From a virus, in IMG/VR virus record IMGVR_UViG_3300001041_000036, positions 1-39,530 of that record: 39,530 bases of DNA, one strand, 5' to 3'. The notes under the pieces are model-generated. The model made no database searches. It was not told where the DNA came from and was given only the letters and a program-made list of their open reading frames with translations. The position numbers were made by a program, and so were the translations under genes. Each line of letters starts with the position of its first letter. Positions within the stretch are counted from its first letter, which is position 1. Shown in pieces: positions 3,278 through 39,530 of the stretch.

Positions 3278-3390
3278 CATCTAAAGAAGTGATGGAGTTT
3301 ACTATGTTCGGTTCAGGTATTTTATATTACGCAGCGTTTTGTTTCTATCGTCAATGGATGCAAAATAAAGAGGAGATGAAAAGGAAATGA
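3274..3390 (+). CDS. Small membrane protein, unknown
   Basis: 38 residues, start GTG overlapping the previous stop (GTGA). One hydrophobic segment (MFGSGILYYAAFCFY) is followed by a basic tail. The stop overlaps the next start (ATGA), so it is translationally coupled on both sides. No family recognised. Confidence 0.5.
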   Translation: MTSKEVMEFTMFGSGILYYAAFCFYRQWMQNKEEMKRK

Positions 3391-4130
3391 GGACGATTGA
3401 TTATCCAACCAAAACTCAGGAAGAATATGACCAAAGCTGGCTTGAGCGCAGGAAATTAAGAACGGATAACAAAGCCCTTCACAGTTCTAAAGAGAGCGTT
3501 AAGGATGATGAATTATCCACAGAAATACTTAATTACTGGAACTCAAAAGGAATAATTGTTCATCGTAAATACTCAAAAAGAACGCCACTTATACTAAGAA
3601 AAATAATTAAGGATTACTCTAAGGAAGAGATATTAAAAGCAATTGATAATTATGTAACAGTTATCAACGATAATAAATATTTGTTTGATTACAAATGGAG
3701 CCTTGAAACATTTTTGCAAAAACCAAACGCTTTTCCTGATTTTGTAGATGGAGGAAGCAAGTGGTTAAGTTATCTGGCGTCTATAACCATAAAAGACAAA
3801 CCTAGAAAAGAGCAACCGACTTTAATTATTGGACCGAATGATAAGGTTATAATTGCCAGTAGCGACTTTCATTCTATTGAAGAATCATACTTAGCGATGA
3901 TTGACGCTTTTAACCGTATGCCATACGGTGAATACTTACAGACTTCTCATTGGTTACATTTTAAAGGAGAAGCATTGAAAGATGCAGGTTTTAAATGCCG
4001 AACGTGTTGCAGTAAAGAAACTGTCCTGAATGTACATCACAATAATTATAGTAATCGCGGTCGAGAGACATTTAATGACGTTGTTGTGTTATGCGAAGTA
4101 TGCCACGCCAAATTTCATAATAAAGAATAA
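3387..4130 (+). CDS. HNH nuclease with replisome-organizer-like N-terminal region
   Basis: 247 residues. Residues ~50-130 (ILNYWNSKGIIVHRK, YSLEETFL-type segment ending WSLETFLQKP) resemble the C-terminal helical domain found in Bacillota phage replisome-organizer/DnaD-like proteins. Residues ~180-247 are an HNH zinc-finger nuclease: CRTC, VHHNNY, then CEVCHAKFH. This is an unusual pairing. The protein may be a nuclease that uses a replication-protein DNA-binding domain for targeting, or a homing endonuclease that captured it. ATGA overlap with the upstream gene shows co-translation. Confidence 0.65.
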   Translation: MRTIDYPTKTQEEYDQSWLERRKLRTDNKALHSSKESVKDDELSTEILNYWNSKGIIVHRKYSKRTPLILRKIIKDYSKEEILKAIDNYVTVINDNKYLFDYKWSLETFLQKPNAFPDFVDGGSKWLSYLASITIKDKPRKEQPTLIIGPNDKVIIASSDFHSIEESYLAMIDAFNRMPYGEYLQTSHWLHFKGEALKDAGFKCRTCCSKETVLNVHHNNYSNRGRETFNDVVVLCEVCHAKFHNKE

Positions 4131-8324: not shown

Positions 8325-9657
8325 TTAAATAAAAAAAATATCAAAATGCTTTTCATTGTCGATCTTAATTTCTTTTATTATTCCTCTCCATAGAGTTCTC
8401 TTTTCTGTTTTTTTCAAAGTAATATAAATACTCCTGAAATCACTCTGAAGGAAATCCCTAAGTCCCTGTACATCAATTTTTTCAGATGGAGTCTCGTTAT
8501 TCTTTAGTTGATCAGTGTACATATCGAAATCCTTTTTATACTCATCAATGTCAATGAGATTGTTTATATAAAGCTCCTTTAGCCTAGTTAGTTTATTTTT
8601 TATTACAGATTTATTAACCTTAGGTTTCTTTTGTTGCTCAACTTTGATTTCATAGTCAACGATATACGAATTTATTTCTTCTTCAATGTGATTGATTAAA
8701 TATTCTTCAACGTAGTTCTCGCTAACGGCATATTTACGAGTACACAAACGTCTTTGAACATATTGATAACAACGATAATATTGATATTCTTTATATCCAT
8801 TATGTGTCATCGCTCCGGATAATCGGCTACCGCATTCAGTACAGGTAAGTAAACCGGAAAAGATATAAATTCTGTCGGTTTGATTTCTACGATAAGTCTT
8901 TCTTTTTAATATTTCTTGAACATTATCAAACTGCTTAATTGAAATAAGTGGCTCACAAAAATCTTTAACGTTTTGGAATTCTCCTTTGTATAGTGAGTTA
9001 GAAAGTACCCTTACAACGGAAGAGTAAGATAAATTAACGTCATATTTATCTCGTATATAGGTGATAGTACCCCTTCGGCTTTGGTTTAGCTCAAAATGAT
9101 TAAATATTTCTATAACTAACCAAGTATTATCATTGTCATGCACCACATGTTTTTTCTCGATCTTCAGTCCAATTGGGATAGAACCGGTAATAGCTTCTTT
9201 TCGTTTTACTTTATTTTCGAAAACAAATTTGATGCGTTCGCTTGTTCTGTCAGATTCATCTTGAGCCACTGATAGCATGATATTAATATGTAGCCTACCA
9301 CTGGCCGTTGTGGTGTCGTAATTCTCAAGGATAGCCCTCCATCCCACGTTATGCTTATCTAATGTTTCTTGGATTTTATAATAATCCTTAACACTTCTAA
9401 ACCAACGATCCATTTTCAGGAAAATGATCAAGTCAAGTTTTCCGGCCATAACATCGTCTATCATCCTCATAAATTCTTTACGGCTACTGTACGCCTTCCT
9501 GGCCGTTTGTCCTTCATCTACATATGTATCTACTATTAACATGTCATGCTCTTGCGCATACTTCGTGAGAGCTTCTTTTTGTGACTGGATGGAATATCCG
9601 TGATGAGCCTGTTCCAATGTGCTGTCAAACCCGAATGTATATAGCTACTCGCATCAT
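8325..9657 (-). pseudogene. Large serine recombinase (integrase), 5' end interrupted
   Basis: From the TTG at 9617 to the stop there are 430 codons with resolvase-domain motifs (EQAHHGYSIQSQ, VDTYVDEG, FLKMDRWFRS, SGRLHINIMLSVAQDE), the recombinase domain, a zinc ribbon (CTECGSRLSG...YYRC) and a coiled-coil C-terminus, as in integrases of temperate Bacillota phages. Upstream, an ATG at 9657 reads MMRVAIYIRV then TGA at 9627-9625; the catalytic-serine codons (STLEQ) are in another frame, offset by 4 bases. The TTG start alone would lack the catalytic serine. The true start and first twelve codons lie at 10400-10365, beyond an HNH gene. Either the gene is broken or expression needs splicing or frameshifting. 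Confidence 0.85.
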
Positions 9658-10301
9658 TCAGTGATCATCCCCTTTTTTATTCTATGGTGCTCCATTGCAT
9701 GTTCTCTATGCGACTGGAACAACCTCAAATTTTCTATTTCATTATTTACTTTGTCTTCATCAATATGATGGACAATTTCATTATCAGTTAAGTATCTCCC
9801 AAGTAATTCCTCCATAACTAGCCTATGCTGGTAAACGTAACCACGATTATCACAATGAGGGTGACTGGGCATTTTAATTTCTACATAGCCATTTCCCTTA
9901 ATATGTTTACCTCCTTTCCAGTTTCCGCTATTTTCACCTTTTCTACCGTGTGAAGCCTTTTCTGCCTCTGGCATTACTCTTCCCTTAGACCAATGGCACC
10001 CCCTGGTTTTAATTGTTGCTTTTAGCCTTTCACTTTGTTCTCTCTTGTATTCATCAGTGAATCTCAGGCCATACATCCCATTCTTTTCCCCTGATCTGTC
10101 ATAAATCTTTAACGCTTCTTCCAGACTGCGCGTTTCGATATTATATTTTTTTAAATGACTATGAATGGTCATGGCGGTCACATTAAGTAATTTTGCAATA
10201 TTCGTACATCCTAATTTTTCGTTTGTGTAAAAATTGTTCAAGGTTTCCTTTAGATCTCTTCCTTCGTCCATAAACCTAATTTCTAATTTTGATACAGCCA
10301 T
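9654..10301 (-). CDS. HNH homing-type endonuclease inside the recombinase gene
   Basis: 215 residues. N-terminal HTH-like part (NIAKLLNVTAMTIHSHL), a NUMOD3-like DNA-binding motif (GEKNGMYGLRF) at about residue 72, and a C-terminal HNH_3-type nuclease (HRLVMEELLGRYL, EIVHHIDEDKVNNEIENL). These are features of mobile phage homing endonucleases. The start at 10301 gives a good AAAGGG spacing. Its stop overlaps an ATG that begins a second copy of the recombinase N-terminus (ATGA). It sits exactly between the two parts of the serine recombinase. Confidence 0.85.
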   Translation of the reverse strand: MAVSKLEIRFMDEGRDLKETLNNFYTNEKLGCTNIAKLLNVTAMTIHSHLKKYNIETRSLEEALKIYDRSGEKNGMYGLRFTDEYKREQSERLKATIKTRGCHWSKGRVMPEAEKASHGRKGENSGNWKGGKHIKGNGYVEIKMPSHPHCDNRGYVYQHRLVMEELLGRYLTDNEIVHHIDEDKVNNEIENLRLFQSHREHAMEHHRIKKGMITE

Positions 10302-10325
10302 AATATACATCCCTTTTGGTTCACA

Positions 10326-11271: not shown

Positions 11272-12057
11272 TTGGTAATTACATCAAAGCTAGTTCAGGG
11301 TGGAAAATTCAGGGTATTAGAAAGCGGAGTTATATACAAAATTAAAGACGGCAAGGAAACATTGGCGAACATTGTTATGACCACTAGGCTTAAAAAATAT
11401 GGGATTGTAAGTTTTACCGAAAATTCCAAGCAGAAACATTATTATGTCCATAGATTAGTTGCCGAAGCATTTTGCGAAAACCCAAACAACTATCAACAGG
11501 TTAACCATTTAGACGGGAACACGCTAAACAATATTCCAAGTAATTTGGAATGGTGTACCCCAAGTCAAAATATTATCCATGCATACAAAACCGGATTAAT
11601 AGACCGAATCAAATATACCGAACCATGCCAAGTATGTGGTCAGCCAACTCACTCAAAGGATGGAGTGTGTTCAATATGTAATCGAGAGATGTTGAGTCAA
11701 GCACATACAGACGGTGCTTTGTCAGAGTTAAGAGAAAGGCTATCGATTATAAATCCAGAGTCACTGAACCAAAGACAAGCTGAAATCTTATCACTTAGAC
11801 TAGAAGGTAAGACGCTTCAAGAAATAGGCGATAAATTCAAAATGACCAGGCAAGGTGTGGATCAAATCATAGGGGGCTTGCTAGTAAGAAGTATCTCTCC
11901 GATTAAAAAAAATCACTTAATTGGGAAAGAGCGTAAAAGACTGTTAGCAAAGATATCAAAGAAAGAGGGCAAGGTTAAGGCGGCACTCGACATGGTTGAG
12001 GAATTAAAAAGGGAAATAAGATCACTTAAGGGATTACTAGCTGAATTTCCGGGATAA
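11272..12057 (+). CDS. HNH_3 endonuclease fused to zinc ribbon and sigma-70 region-4-like HTH
   Basis: 261 residues from TTG with AGAGGGGG upstream. Residues ~10-115: HNH_3-type nuclease region (YYVHRLVAEAFCENP, QVNHLDGNTLNNIPSNLEW, PSQNIIHAY). Residues ~119-142: CQVCG...CSICN zinc ribbon. Residues ~165-205: sigma region-4-like HTH (LNQRQAEILSLRLEGKTLQEIG then MTRQGVDQI). The C-terminus is a coiled coil. May be a homing-type nuclease or a DNA-binding regulator; the operon position right after Cro is typical for regulators. Confidence 0.7.
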   Translation: MVITSKLVQGGKFRVLESGVIYKIKDGKETLANIVMTTRLKKYGIVSFTENSKQKHYYVHRLVAEAFCENPNNYQQVNHLDGNTLNNIPSNLEWCTPSQNIIHAYKTGLIDRIKYTEPCQVCGQPTHSKDGVCSICNREMLSQAHTDGALSELRERLSIINPESLNQRQAEILSLRLEGKTLQEIGDKFKMTRQGVDQIIGGLLVRSISPIKKNHLIGKERKRLLAKISKKEGKVKAALDMVEELKREIRSLKGLLAEFPG

Positions 12058-37184: not shown

Positions 37185-37730
37185 ATGGGTGTAAAGTTGA
37201 CAGTTAAGCAAGAGAAATATGCTCAAGGGTTATTTACTGGGATGACTCAAAGGGAAGCGTATAAGGCGGCTTATGATGCTGGGAACATGTCTGATAAATG
37301 CATTGATGAAGAAGCTTGCAAGCTATTTGCAAACCCAAAGCTCGCCCAAAGGATTGAACAATTACAGGATGAAGTTAAATATAGGAACATGGCAACAGTA
37401 GAGAGAGTGGTTGCGGAATATGCCAAAATAGCCTTTTCAGACATAAAAGACTTCCTTTCGTTTAAGACTGAGAAGACAATTGTGGACACTGATGACGAGG
37501 GAAATCCTATATATGGATACAAACAAATAGTAGATGCCAAATCTTCTGAGGAAATAGATGGATCTATGGTGAATGAGGTGTCTATTGGCAAAGATGGGAC
37601 GTTTAAGTTCAAGCTACACGACAAAAAAGGTGCATTAGATATGATCGGTAAGCACCTGGGCATGTTTGTAGATAAGGTTGAAGTAGATGCCGCTCAAACT
37701 ATCACAATCCGCATTGAAGACACTGAGTAA
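37185..37730 (+). CDS. Terminase small subunit
   Basis: 181 residues, GGAAGGTGAT site. N-terminal HTH LTVKQEKYAQGLFTGMTQRE, AYKAAY; ANPKLAQRIEQLQDEVKYRN and ERVVAEYAKIAFSDIKDFLS are typical of the Terminase_2 family (XtmA-like). It recognises the packaging site and recruits the large subunit, whose gene begins at 39398. Confidence 0.88.
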   Translation: MGVKLTVKQEKYAQGLFTGMTQREAYKAAYDAGNMSDKCIDEEACKLFANPKLAQRIEQLQDEVKYRNMATVERVVAEYAKIAFSDIKDFLSFKTEKTIVDTDDEGNPIYGYKQIVDAKSSEEIDGSMVNEVSIGKDGTFKFKLHDKKGALDMIGKHLGMFVDKVEVDAAQTITIRIEDTE

Positions 37731-38603: not shown

Positions 38604-39134
38604 GTGCATAAGGTGACTAATATTATTGATGAAAATGGAGAGATAGTTAATACGAAAAGAGCTTATTTTAAAGATATGTTTGACGAGGAAAAAGGTTATC
38701 TATTTTGGAATAAGACCGGATTCGTCAAGACGTTCCAAGATGTAGAACTTCCTAAAAAGATAACCAAGACTGACATAGCAAACTTATTCCTATTGAGTAA
38801 GAAGGTTTACTCCACTACTAATATGATTGGATACCGCGGTAATGGTGGCATAAGAGTGATGAGTGTCGAACAGATGGCAAGGGTTATCAGGGATACAGAC
38901 AGACATACAGTTACCTTTTTAAATAGGATGATTAAGCATAGGATTATTGCTAGGGTAGAGGTGAAGGTTGGTGAGGATGATATCGTCACTCAATATTATT
39001 TCAACCCTATTTACTTTTTCTCATCTAATCGGTTGTCGCTGAATCTTTACCTGTTGTTTCAGAATGATTTGGAACCGTTTATTCCTGAGTATGTTCGGCA
39101 GAAGTTTAAGTTATTGAAACCTCAAACCCCTTAA
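38604..39134 (+). CDS. Winged-helix DNA-binding phage protein, replication-initiator-like
   Basis: 176 residues from GTG with GGAGGTGG upstream. YFKDMFDEEKGYLFWNKTGF, LPKKITKTDIANLFLLSKKV, MSVEQMARVIRDTDRHTVTF, LNRMIKHRIIARVEV and NPIYFFSSNRLSLNLYLLF resemble winged-helix phage proteins related to plasmid-type initiators (from memory). It lies between the two terminase genes, an unusual place for replication, so a regulatory or packaging role is equally possible. Confidence 0.6.
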   Translation: MHKVTNIIDENGEIVNTKRAYFKDMFDEEKGYLFWNKTGFVKTFQDVELPKKITKTDIANLFLLSKKVYSTTNMIGYRGNGGIRVMSVEQMARVIRDTDRHTVTFLNRMIKHRIIARVEVKVGEDDIVTQYYFNPIYFFSSNRLSLNLYLLFQNDLEPFIPEYVRQKFKLLKPQTP

Positions 39135-39190
39135 CCCCTTCTTTCAACCCCAAACCCTTGATTACAAGCCCAATTTCAGGAGGAAATAGC

Positions 39191-39364
39191 ATGTCTGAAA
39201 ACAGAGCGTGTAAAGTATTCGATCCAACAGACCCTACTTACGGCAAAACCAACTGTGCTTCATGCCGCGTATTCAACGGAACAACCTGCAAAGACGAACC
39301 CTATGTGATGGCAATACATGAACCCGCAACAATTATCCATACCGGATGGTGTAATAATGGCTAA
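39191..39364 (+). CDS. Small cysteine-containing protein
   Basis: 57 residues from ATG with AGGAGG upstream. CKVF, NCASCRVFNGTTC and WCNNG suggest a metal site. No family recognised. An 11-codon frame (39357-39392) overlaps its end and the terL ribosome binding site. Confidence 0.5.
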   Translation: MSENRACKVFDPTDPTYGKTNCASCRVFNGTTCKDEPYVMAIHEPATIIHTGWCNNG

Positions 39365-39397
39365 TTATAGATATTTCTATTATTGGAGGTGATGCCA

Positions 39398-39530
39398 ATG
39401 CCCAACATTGATATACGCATAAGTGCTAAAGTGTTCAACAAGATATACATGCCATGCCTAGAGACTGATTTCCGCTATGAAGTATACTATGGTGGAGCCT
39501 AGCTGGATCGGGAAAGTCGGTATTTATAGC
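39398..39530 (+). pseudogene. Terminase large subunit, 5' end, with 5-base insertion in Walker A (3' partial)
   Basis: ATG 39398 follows a perfect GGAGGTGAT. MPNIDIRISAKVFNKIYMPC, then RYEVYYGGA matches the start of phage terminase ATPases just before Walker A. TAG follows at 39500-39502. Skipping five bases (TAGCT, 39500-39504) the frame continues GSGKSVFI, completing GGAGSGKS. So the gene is shifted exactly inside the ATP-binding loop. The window ends here. It may be an inactivated gene, an assembly artefact, or a site of ribosomal bypass (GCC take-off, TAG, GCT landing). Confidence 0.7.

Follow-up and report, generated by a model that had tools for sequence, protein, structure and literature searches.

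A stop codon in the Walker A motif of phage terminase genes, probably hopped by the ribosome and linked to homing endonucleases

We analysed a viral stretch of DNA, the whole 39,530-base IMG/VR record (the window), whose terminase large subunit gene (terL) carries five extra bases inside its Walker A motif. The first frame reads MPNIDIRISAKVFNKIYMPCLETDFRYEVYYGGA and is closed by TAG at 39500–39502. TAGCT sits between a GCC codon and GGATCGGGAAAG (GSGK), and the codons that follow from 39505, GGA TCG GGA AAG TCG, spell GSGKS. The product matches Terminase_3 and the phrog terminase large subunit. The best overall explanation, to which we give a probability of about 0.78, is that ribosomes hop over the stop and that the insert originated in a homing-endonuclease cassette. 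Features of the site and its upstream neighbourhood are collected in Table 1.

Table 1. Features at and upstream of the interrupted terL, all in window coordinates.
Feature	Position	Strand	Basis
Terminase small subunit (Terminase_2)	37185..37730	+	profile match
phrog_31110 protein, function unknown; same place as the T5orf172/GIY-YIG-type ORF of the L004 background	38604..39134	+	profile match
Small ORF with CxxC motif, immediately 5' of terL, common to the L004 background	39158..39364	+	sequence comparison
Shine-Dalgarno GGAGG of terL	39385..39389	+	sequence
terL first open frame from ATG, 34 codons, last residues YEVYYGGA, then TAG	39398..39502	+	sequence
Take-off codon GCC, Ala, residue 3 of GGAGSGKS	39497..39499	+	sequence
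Extra bases TAGCT, with TAG closing the first frame	39500..39504	+	sequence, sister contigs
Landing codon GCT, Ala, matching the take-off codon	39502..39504	+	sequence; covariation across 26 lineages
terL resumed frame GSGKSVFI, ended by the contig end	39505..39530	+	sister contigs extend 468 codons

That the TAGCT insert is a real feature is, at the least, virtually certain. An exact scan of 2.9 million viral contigs in IMG/VR for TATGGTGGAGCN followed after 0–30 bases by GGATCGGGAAAGTC yielded seven further contigs, and in every one the spacer is exactly five bases with the same letters. These contigs come from six samples (3300009285, 3300025030, 3300025012, 3300025000 twice, 3300024999 and 3300001041). 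A sequencing or assembly artefact could be suspected from the position of the contig end, 39530, 26 nt past the insert; against eight contigs from six or more samples, with long flanks on both sides, the chance of this is negligible. The first-pass annotation had thus read the five bases and their TAG exactly, and the artefact that it kept as an alternative is ruled out by the agreement of many contigs. The last bases of the window, tatagc, adjoin the first base that differs between two alleles, a difference that would probably explain why the assembly stops there.

Beyond the insert, five of the seven sister contigs have 468 further terL codons before the gene's stop; in the other two the contig end comes first. 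One sister contig, of 65.8 kb, starts at terL residue 148 and stops at residue 189; its ends overlap, and it is therefore apparently a complete circular genome. The two main alleles, L004 and L002, are separated by 24 synonymous and two non-synonymous codon differences (dN/dS 0.04), the latter being the final two codons of terL, and this ratio indicates that the part of terL past the stop is under purifying selection. Two sequences, L006 and L007, are recombinants between the two alleles. Since they recombine near the site, some of the synonymous divergence may be older than the insert. In the window clade, homology between the two backgrounds extends over ~390 nt upstream of the P-loop.

Comparison with related terL genes for an insertion at this codon, an idea of the first-pass annotation, revealed that the window is one case of many: in pattern scans, ~26 independent terL lineages had a stop codon at this very Walker A residue and resumed 2–9 nt further on, at G[SG]GK[ST]. 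The scans were degenerate: their only requirements were GGN GGN G[CG]N followed by a stop, then GGN-N[CG]N-GGN-AAR as the re-entry point, with no selection for matched codons. Further relatives were fetched via the downstream half of TerL, which is unable to select for the insert. This set held three more interrupted forms at the same residue, beyond the window clade: L098 (GCG-TA-GGT), L109 (GGT-TAA-GGA) and L111/L112/L123 (GGT-TA-GGC). Within it, terL genes with an ATPase domain show frame breaks at the P-loop only; an apparent frame break in the MAG contig L140 was discarded, being scaffold Ns. In a group of contigs (L125–L138 and L141) the similarity to TerL begins only near residue 229, in the nuclease domain, their ATPase half being too different or separate.

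Interrupted TerL types include GGAGSGKS, GGGAGGGKS and GGAKGGGKT; intact YGGGAGGGKS-family relatives are under-sampled. On a tree built from 26 interrupted and 93 intact TerLs, the trait must have changed state 13 times or more. There the window clade is sister to an intact terL with 85% identity (L094), and interrupted L236 is nested within an intact group. Scans for gaps of 12–42 nt returned none in terL, and an out-of-sample test on Arg-type P-loops gave no matched case. A weak candidate of that type is L326 (699–736, minus strand), where the P-loop reads GGR and TGACATTGA stands before GCGKT, with an unmatched landing codon. Scan matches in ParA, SbcC and similar P-loop proteins were rejected as chance frames with a non-homologous upstream half. 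No stop version was found in isolated phages or plasmids; the Bacteroides phages BS-TP1 and Versailles, considered as such isolates, are both intact.

The take-off and landing codons are synonymous in 19 of the 26 lineages. Chance would give about one such lineage, and 19 was not reached in any of 200,000 simulations. Gly take-offs land on Gly and Ala take-offs on Ala in the majority of cases. Matched Ala pairs around TA include GCC-TA-GCT, GCT-TA-GCT, GCC-TA-GCA, GCC-TA-GCC, GCC-TA-GCG and GCA-TA-GCA; the Gly pairs include GGT-TA-GGC, GGT-TA-GGT, GGT-TAA-GGA and GGC-TGAAT-GGC; and longer gaps occur in GCG-TAG-GCT, GCT-TAA-GCA, GCC-TGAAC-GCC and GCC-TAATTC-GCA. The seven unmatched landing codons (GTT three times, GTA, GAG, ACA and TCC) are each one base off an Ala codon. 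In the +5 class the landing codon begins with the third base of the stop, so the null is ~1/4 rather than 1/16; even so, 13 of 14 members are matched. All three stops are used (TAG 15, TAA 6, TGA 5), and GCC is the take-off codon in 15 of 22 Ala cases, compared with 12 of 74 intact terLs. The lineages carry shifts of +2, +5, +6, +7, +8 and +9, with +5 the commonest. No fixed frameshift direction explains such a range, and only the landing codon, rather than a frame, is what interrupted terLs have in common.

A ribosome hop from GCC to GCT over the TAG is the best explanation for the window, and such a hop is likely. The ribosome would read GGT GGA GCC, whereupon TAG would enter the A site; the peptidyl-tRNA-Ala would leave GCC, shift 5 nt forward and re-pair with GCT, and translation would resume at GGA to give the exact family P-loop, GGAGSGKS. 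Such a hop, with its likeness to T4 gene 60, had been proposed from the window letters, and the matched-codon rule in 19 of 26 lineages, for which the scans did not select, lends it support. Homology and dN/dS support a single protein that would be made from both terL parts. In 24 of the 26 lineages the resume frame lacks a start codon 5' of the P-loop, so that reinitiation could not restore this loop. RNA structure at the site was nothing unusual relative to shuffles, and the 5', take-off and 3' stem-loops of the gene 60 type were not found; for a 5-nt gap they may be unneeded. An intervening sequence of the group I/II intron or intein kind was also considered and rejected, the insert being only 5 nt and the window without any Rfam match.

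An ordinary programmed frameshift (−1 or +2) at GCC TAG would yield GGALAGSGKS or GGAAGSGKS. Five extra bases do correspond to the −1 phase, and a −1 shift would still leave [AG]xxxxGK[ST]. However, the site lacks an X XXY YYZ slippery heptamer, the phase differs among related terLs, and a frameshift gives no reason for a conserved synonymous landing codon. We regard this reading as improbable.

Slightly less probable still is a disabling insertion, in which terL would be dead and the carriers would be defective phages or satellites that borrow a terminase. The facts that agree with it are the lack of an isolate with the stop version and the number of copies: the 12 records in which the Terminase_3 model detected terL have one apiece, and that one is interrupted. 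Selection speaks against it, since pairs of interrupted terLs have dN/dS of 0.02–0.15 at dS up to 1.6, with L181/L230 (0.38) as the exception. The P-loop residues are moreover intact on both sides of the insert, the trait recurs at one codon only, and the 65.8-kb genome is apparently complete and circular. A pseudogene was rejected on similar grounds, the breaks being confined to the P-loop instead of scattered and dN/dS being low in most pairs. The disabling alternative of the first-pass annotation is therefore not supported: purifying selection persists downstream and the trait recurs.

Hopping over the stop would make the insert harmless and thereby allow it to be retained. As to its source, HNH or NUMOD domains lie upstream of 11 of the 20 interrupted terLs that have upstream sequence but only 1 of 83 intact ones (p = 9e-9; 6e-6 with one clade collapsed). 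The eleventh locus depends on individual HNH assignments or on the T5orf172 ORF of the L004 background, and the contrast is unchanged with ten. Directly 5' of terL lie NUMOD4-HNH_3 genes in L148, L154 and L286 (and, with a weaker NUMOD4, L261), HNH_3 with a zinc finger in L205, HNH in L156, L284 and L267, a shortened HNH remnant in L231, and a NUMOD3 protein with an AP2/HNH-like motif in L236; the T5orf172/GIY-YIG-type ORF of the L004 background lies ~280 nt upstream of terL. Serine recombinases are not enriched 5' of terL (2 of 21 interrupted versus 6 of 83 intact). Small ones occur there in L098 (952–1521) and L218 (10998–11570), and intact terLs have them too. Short ORFs 5' of terL in L221 (8536–8736) and L231 (363–593) look like internally deleted HNH remnants that keep their start and end.

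One relative exposes the boundary of the acquired DNA. As far as the terS stop, L236 and the intact L113 share 99.94% identity over 1,693 nt. There follows in L236 a 912-nt block (L236:1936–2847) made up of an HNH gene, terL codons 1–38 and TAGGC; the corresponding stretch of L113 measures ~94 nt. Just before the insert the two differ at 19 of 60 positions; just after it, at 1 of 60. A cassette-free allele with its boundary at the insert is thus shown for that relative only, and because near identity is regained right after the insert, the insert of L236 has the appearance of a mobile cassette's 3' end. L233 carries the same block joined to another downstream allele.

A homing-cassette origin is likely for the inserts in general. 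The presumed target of the endonuclease would be the Walker A codons of intact terL alleles; after cleavage, repair would copy the endonuclease, the terL 5' end and the insert into the recipient, up to the break. Most likely, then, a free-standing homing-endonuclease cassette has the insert as its 3' end, where it presumably serves as a mark of self-protection. The scar of endonuclease cleavage envisaged in the first-pass annotation seems borne out in its link to an endonuclease, by the upstream domains and the L236/L113 boundary; its disabling character is not, as the insert would rather be a tolerated end mark of a cassette. For the window itself, where no endonuclease gene adjoins terL, the chances that its lineage once carried such a cassette seem about even. 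Three HNH genes lie elsewhere in the window, at 9654–10310 (minus strand), 11272–12057 (plus) and 3387–4130 (plus).

Alternatively, the hop could be kept for regulation, either to hold TerL low or late or to sense charged tRNA or release factor; the endonuclease link would then be secondary. Several lineages without an adjacent endonuclease, the window included, would fit, as would the suspected bypass case of Streptomyces phage Hau3 at the same P-loop, which uses the rare codon UUA (PMC5009743). Yet endonuclease enrichment is strong, the cassette boundary is clean at the insert and the state changes often on the tree, so we consider regulation unlikely as the main cause and favour the hopped cassette end.

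The suspected bypass in the Hau3 terminase has been cited as a host adaptation (PMC5009743). In the Hau3 sequence (JX182369; L317 2600–2640) the bypass site falls exactly within the P-loop of TerL, where KGWG GGC-TTACTCC-GGT KDP shows a matched pair of Gly codons. Hau3 differs from the set described here in its A-site codon, UUA instead of a stop, and in its gap of 10 nt.

The established precedent is T4 gene 60, with matched GGA codons, a UAG after take-off and a 50-nt gap that is thought to protect against an adjacent homing endonuclease (PMC5009743, PMC11194080). The terL inserts share the matched take-off and landing codons and the stop right after take-off, but their gaps are 2–9 nt rather than 50, the gene is another one, many lineages are involved and conserved stem-loops were not found. 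Bonocora et al. (2011; cited in PMC8300805) reportedly called MobA plus the bypass segment a mobile cassette. The likeness to this MobA/gene 60 cassette lies in a free-standing HNH gene 5' of a bypassed insert and in an insert thought to be nuclease-protective (PMC5009743); the differences are the terL P-loop as target, several unrelated HNH types, the tiny insert and, in the window copy, the missing adjacent endonuclease. Synthetic E. coli stop-hops also have matched codons around a stop but are constructs (PMC5009743). The byps of Magnusiomyces mitochondria resemble the terL set in being many short inserts corrected by translation (PMC5009743); they are mitochondrial and spread over many genes, not placed at one codon of one gene. 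A 2016 review knew of no natural in-frame stop-hop and expected shorter counterparts with matched codons (PMC5009743). Relative to known bypasses, the terL set stands apart in its very short gaps, true stops, repeated origin and varied HNH link.

It is somewhat more probable than its opposite that these terLs expose a widespread class of phage mobile elements hidden at translation, not by RNA or protein splicing, in which the Walker A codons of TerL are the target of free-standing homing endonucleases, whose cassettes finish with 2–10-nt stop junctions hopped via synonymous codons. If so, they would be the first natural family of short stop-hops that recurs, with many origins and with Hau3 as a sense-codon variant. 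Bypassing has for decades had one well-studied phage example; a single essential gene now adds ~26 independent natural candidates. Their comparative grammar (GCC favoured, +5 favoured, any stop) offers a direct route to testing what hopping minimally requires. Given the link to homing endonucleases, hopping may be a third means, besides introns and inteins, by which a mobile element can occupy an essential gene and leave it functional. In practice, gene finders will miss or split TerL, a main phage marker gene, in genomes of this kind.

In L207, a second HNH gene (NUMOD4-HNH_3, 1946–2500) lies within the 3' half of the interrupted terL and splits it again. No tRNA was found in the window. A large serine recombinase gene is present at 8325–9617 (minus strand), which makes the window phage probably temperate.
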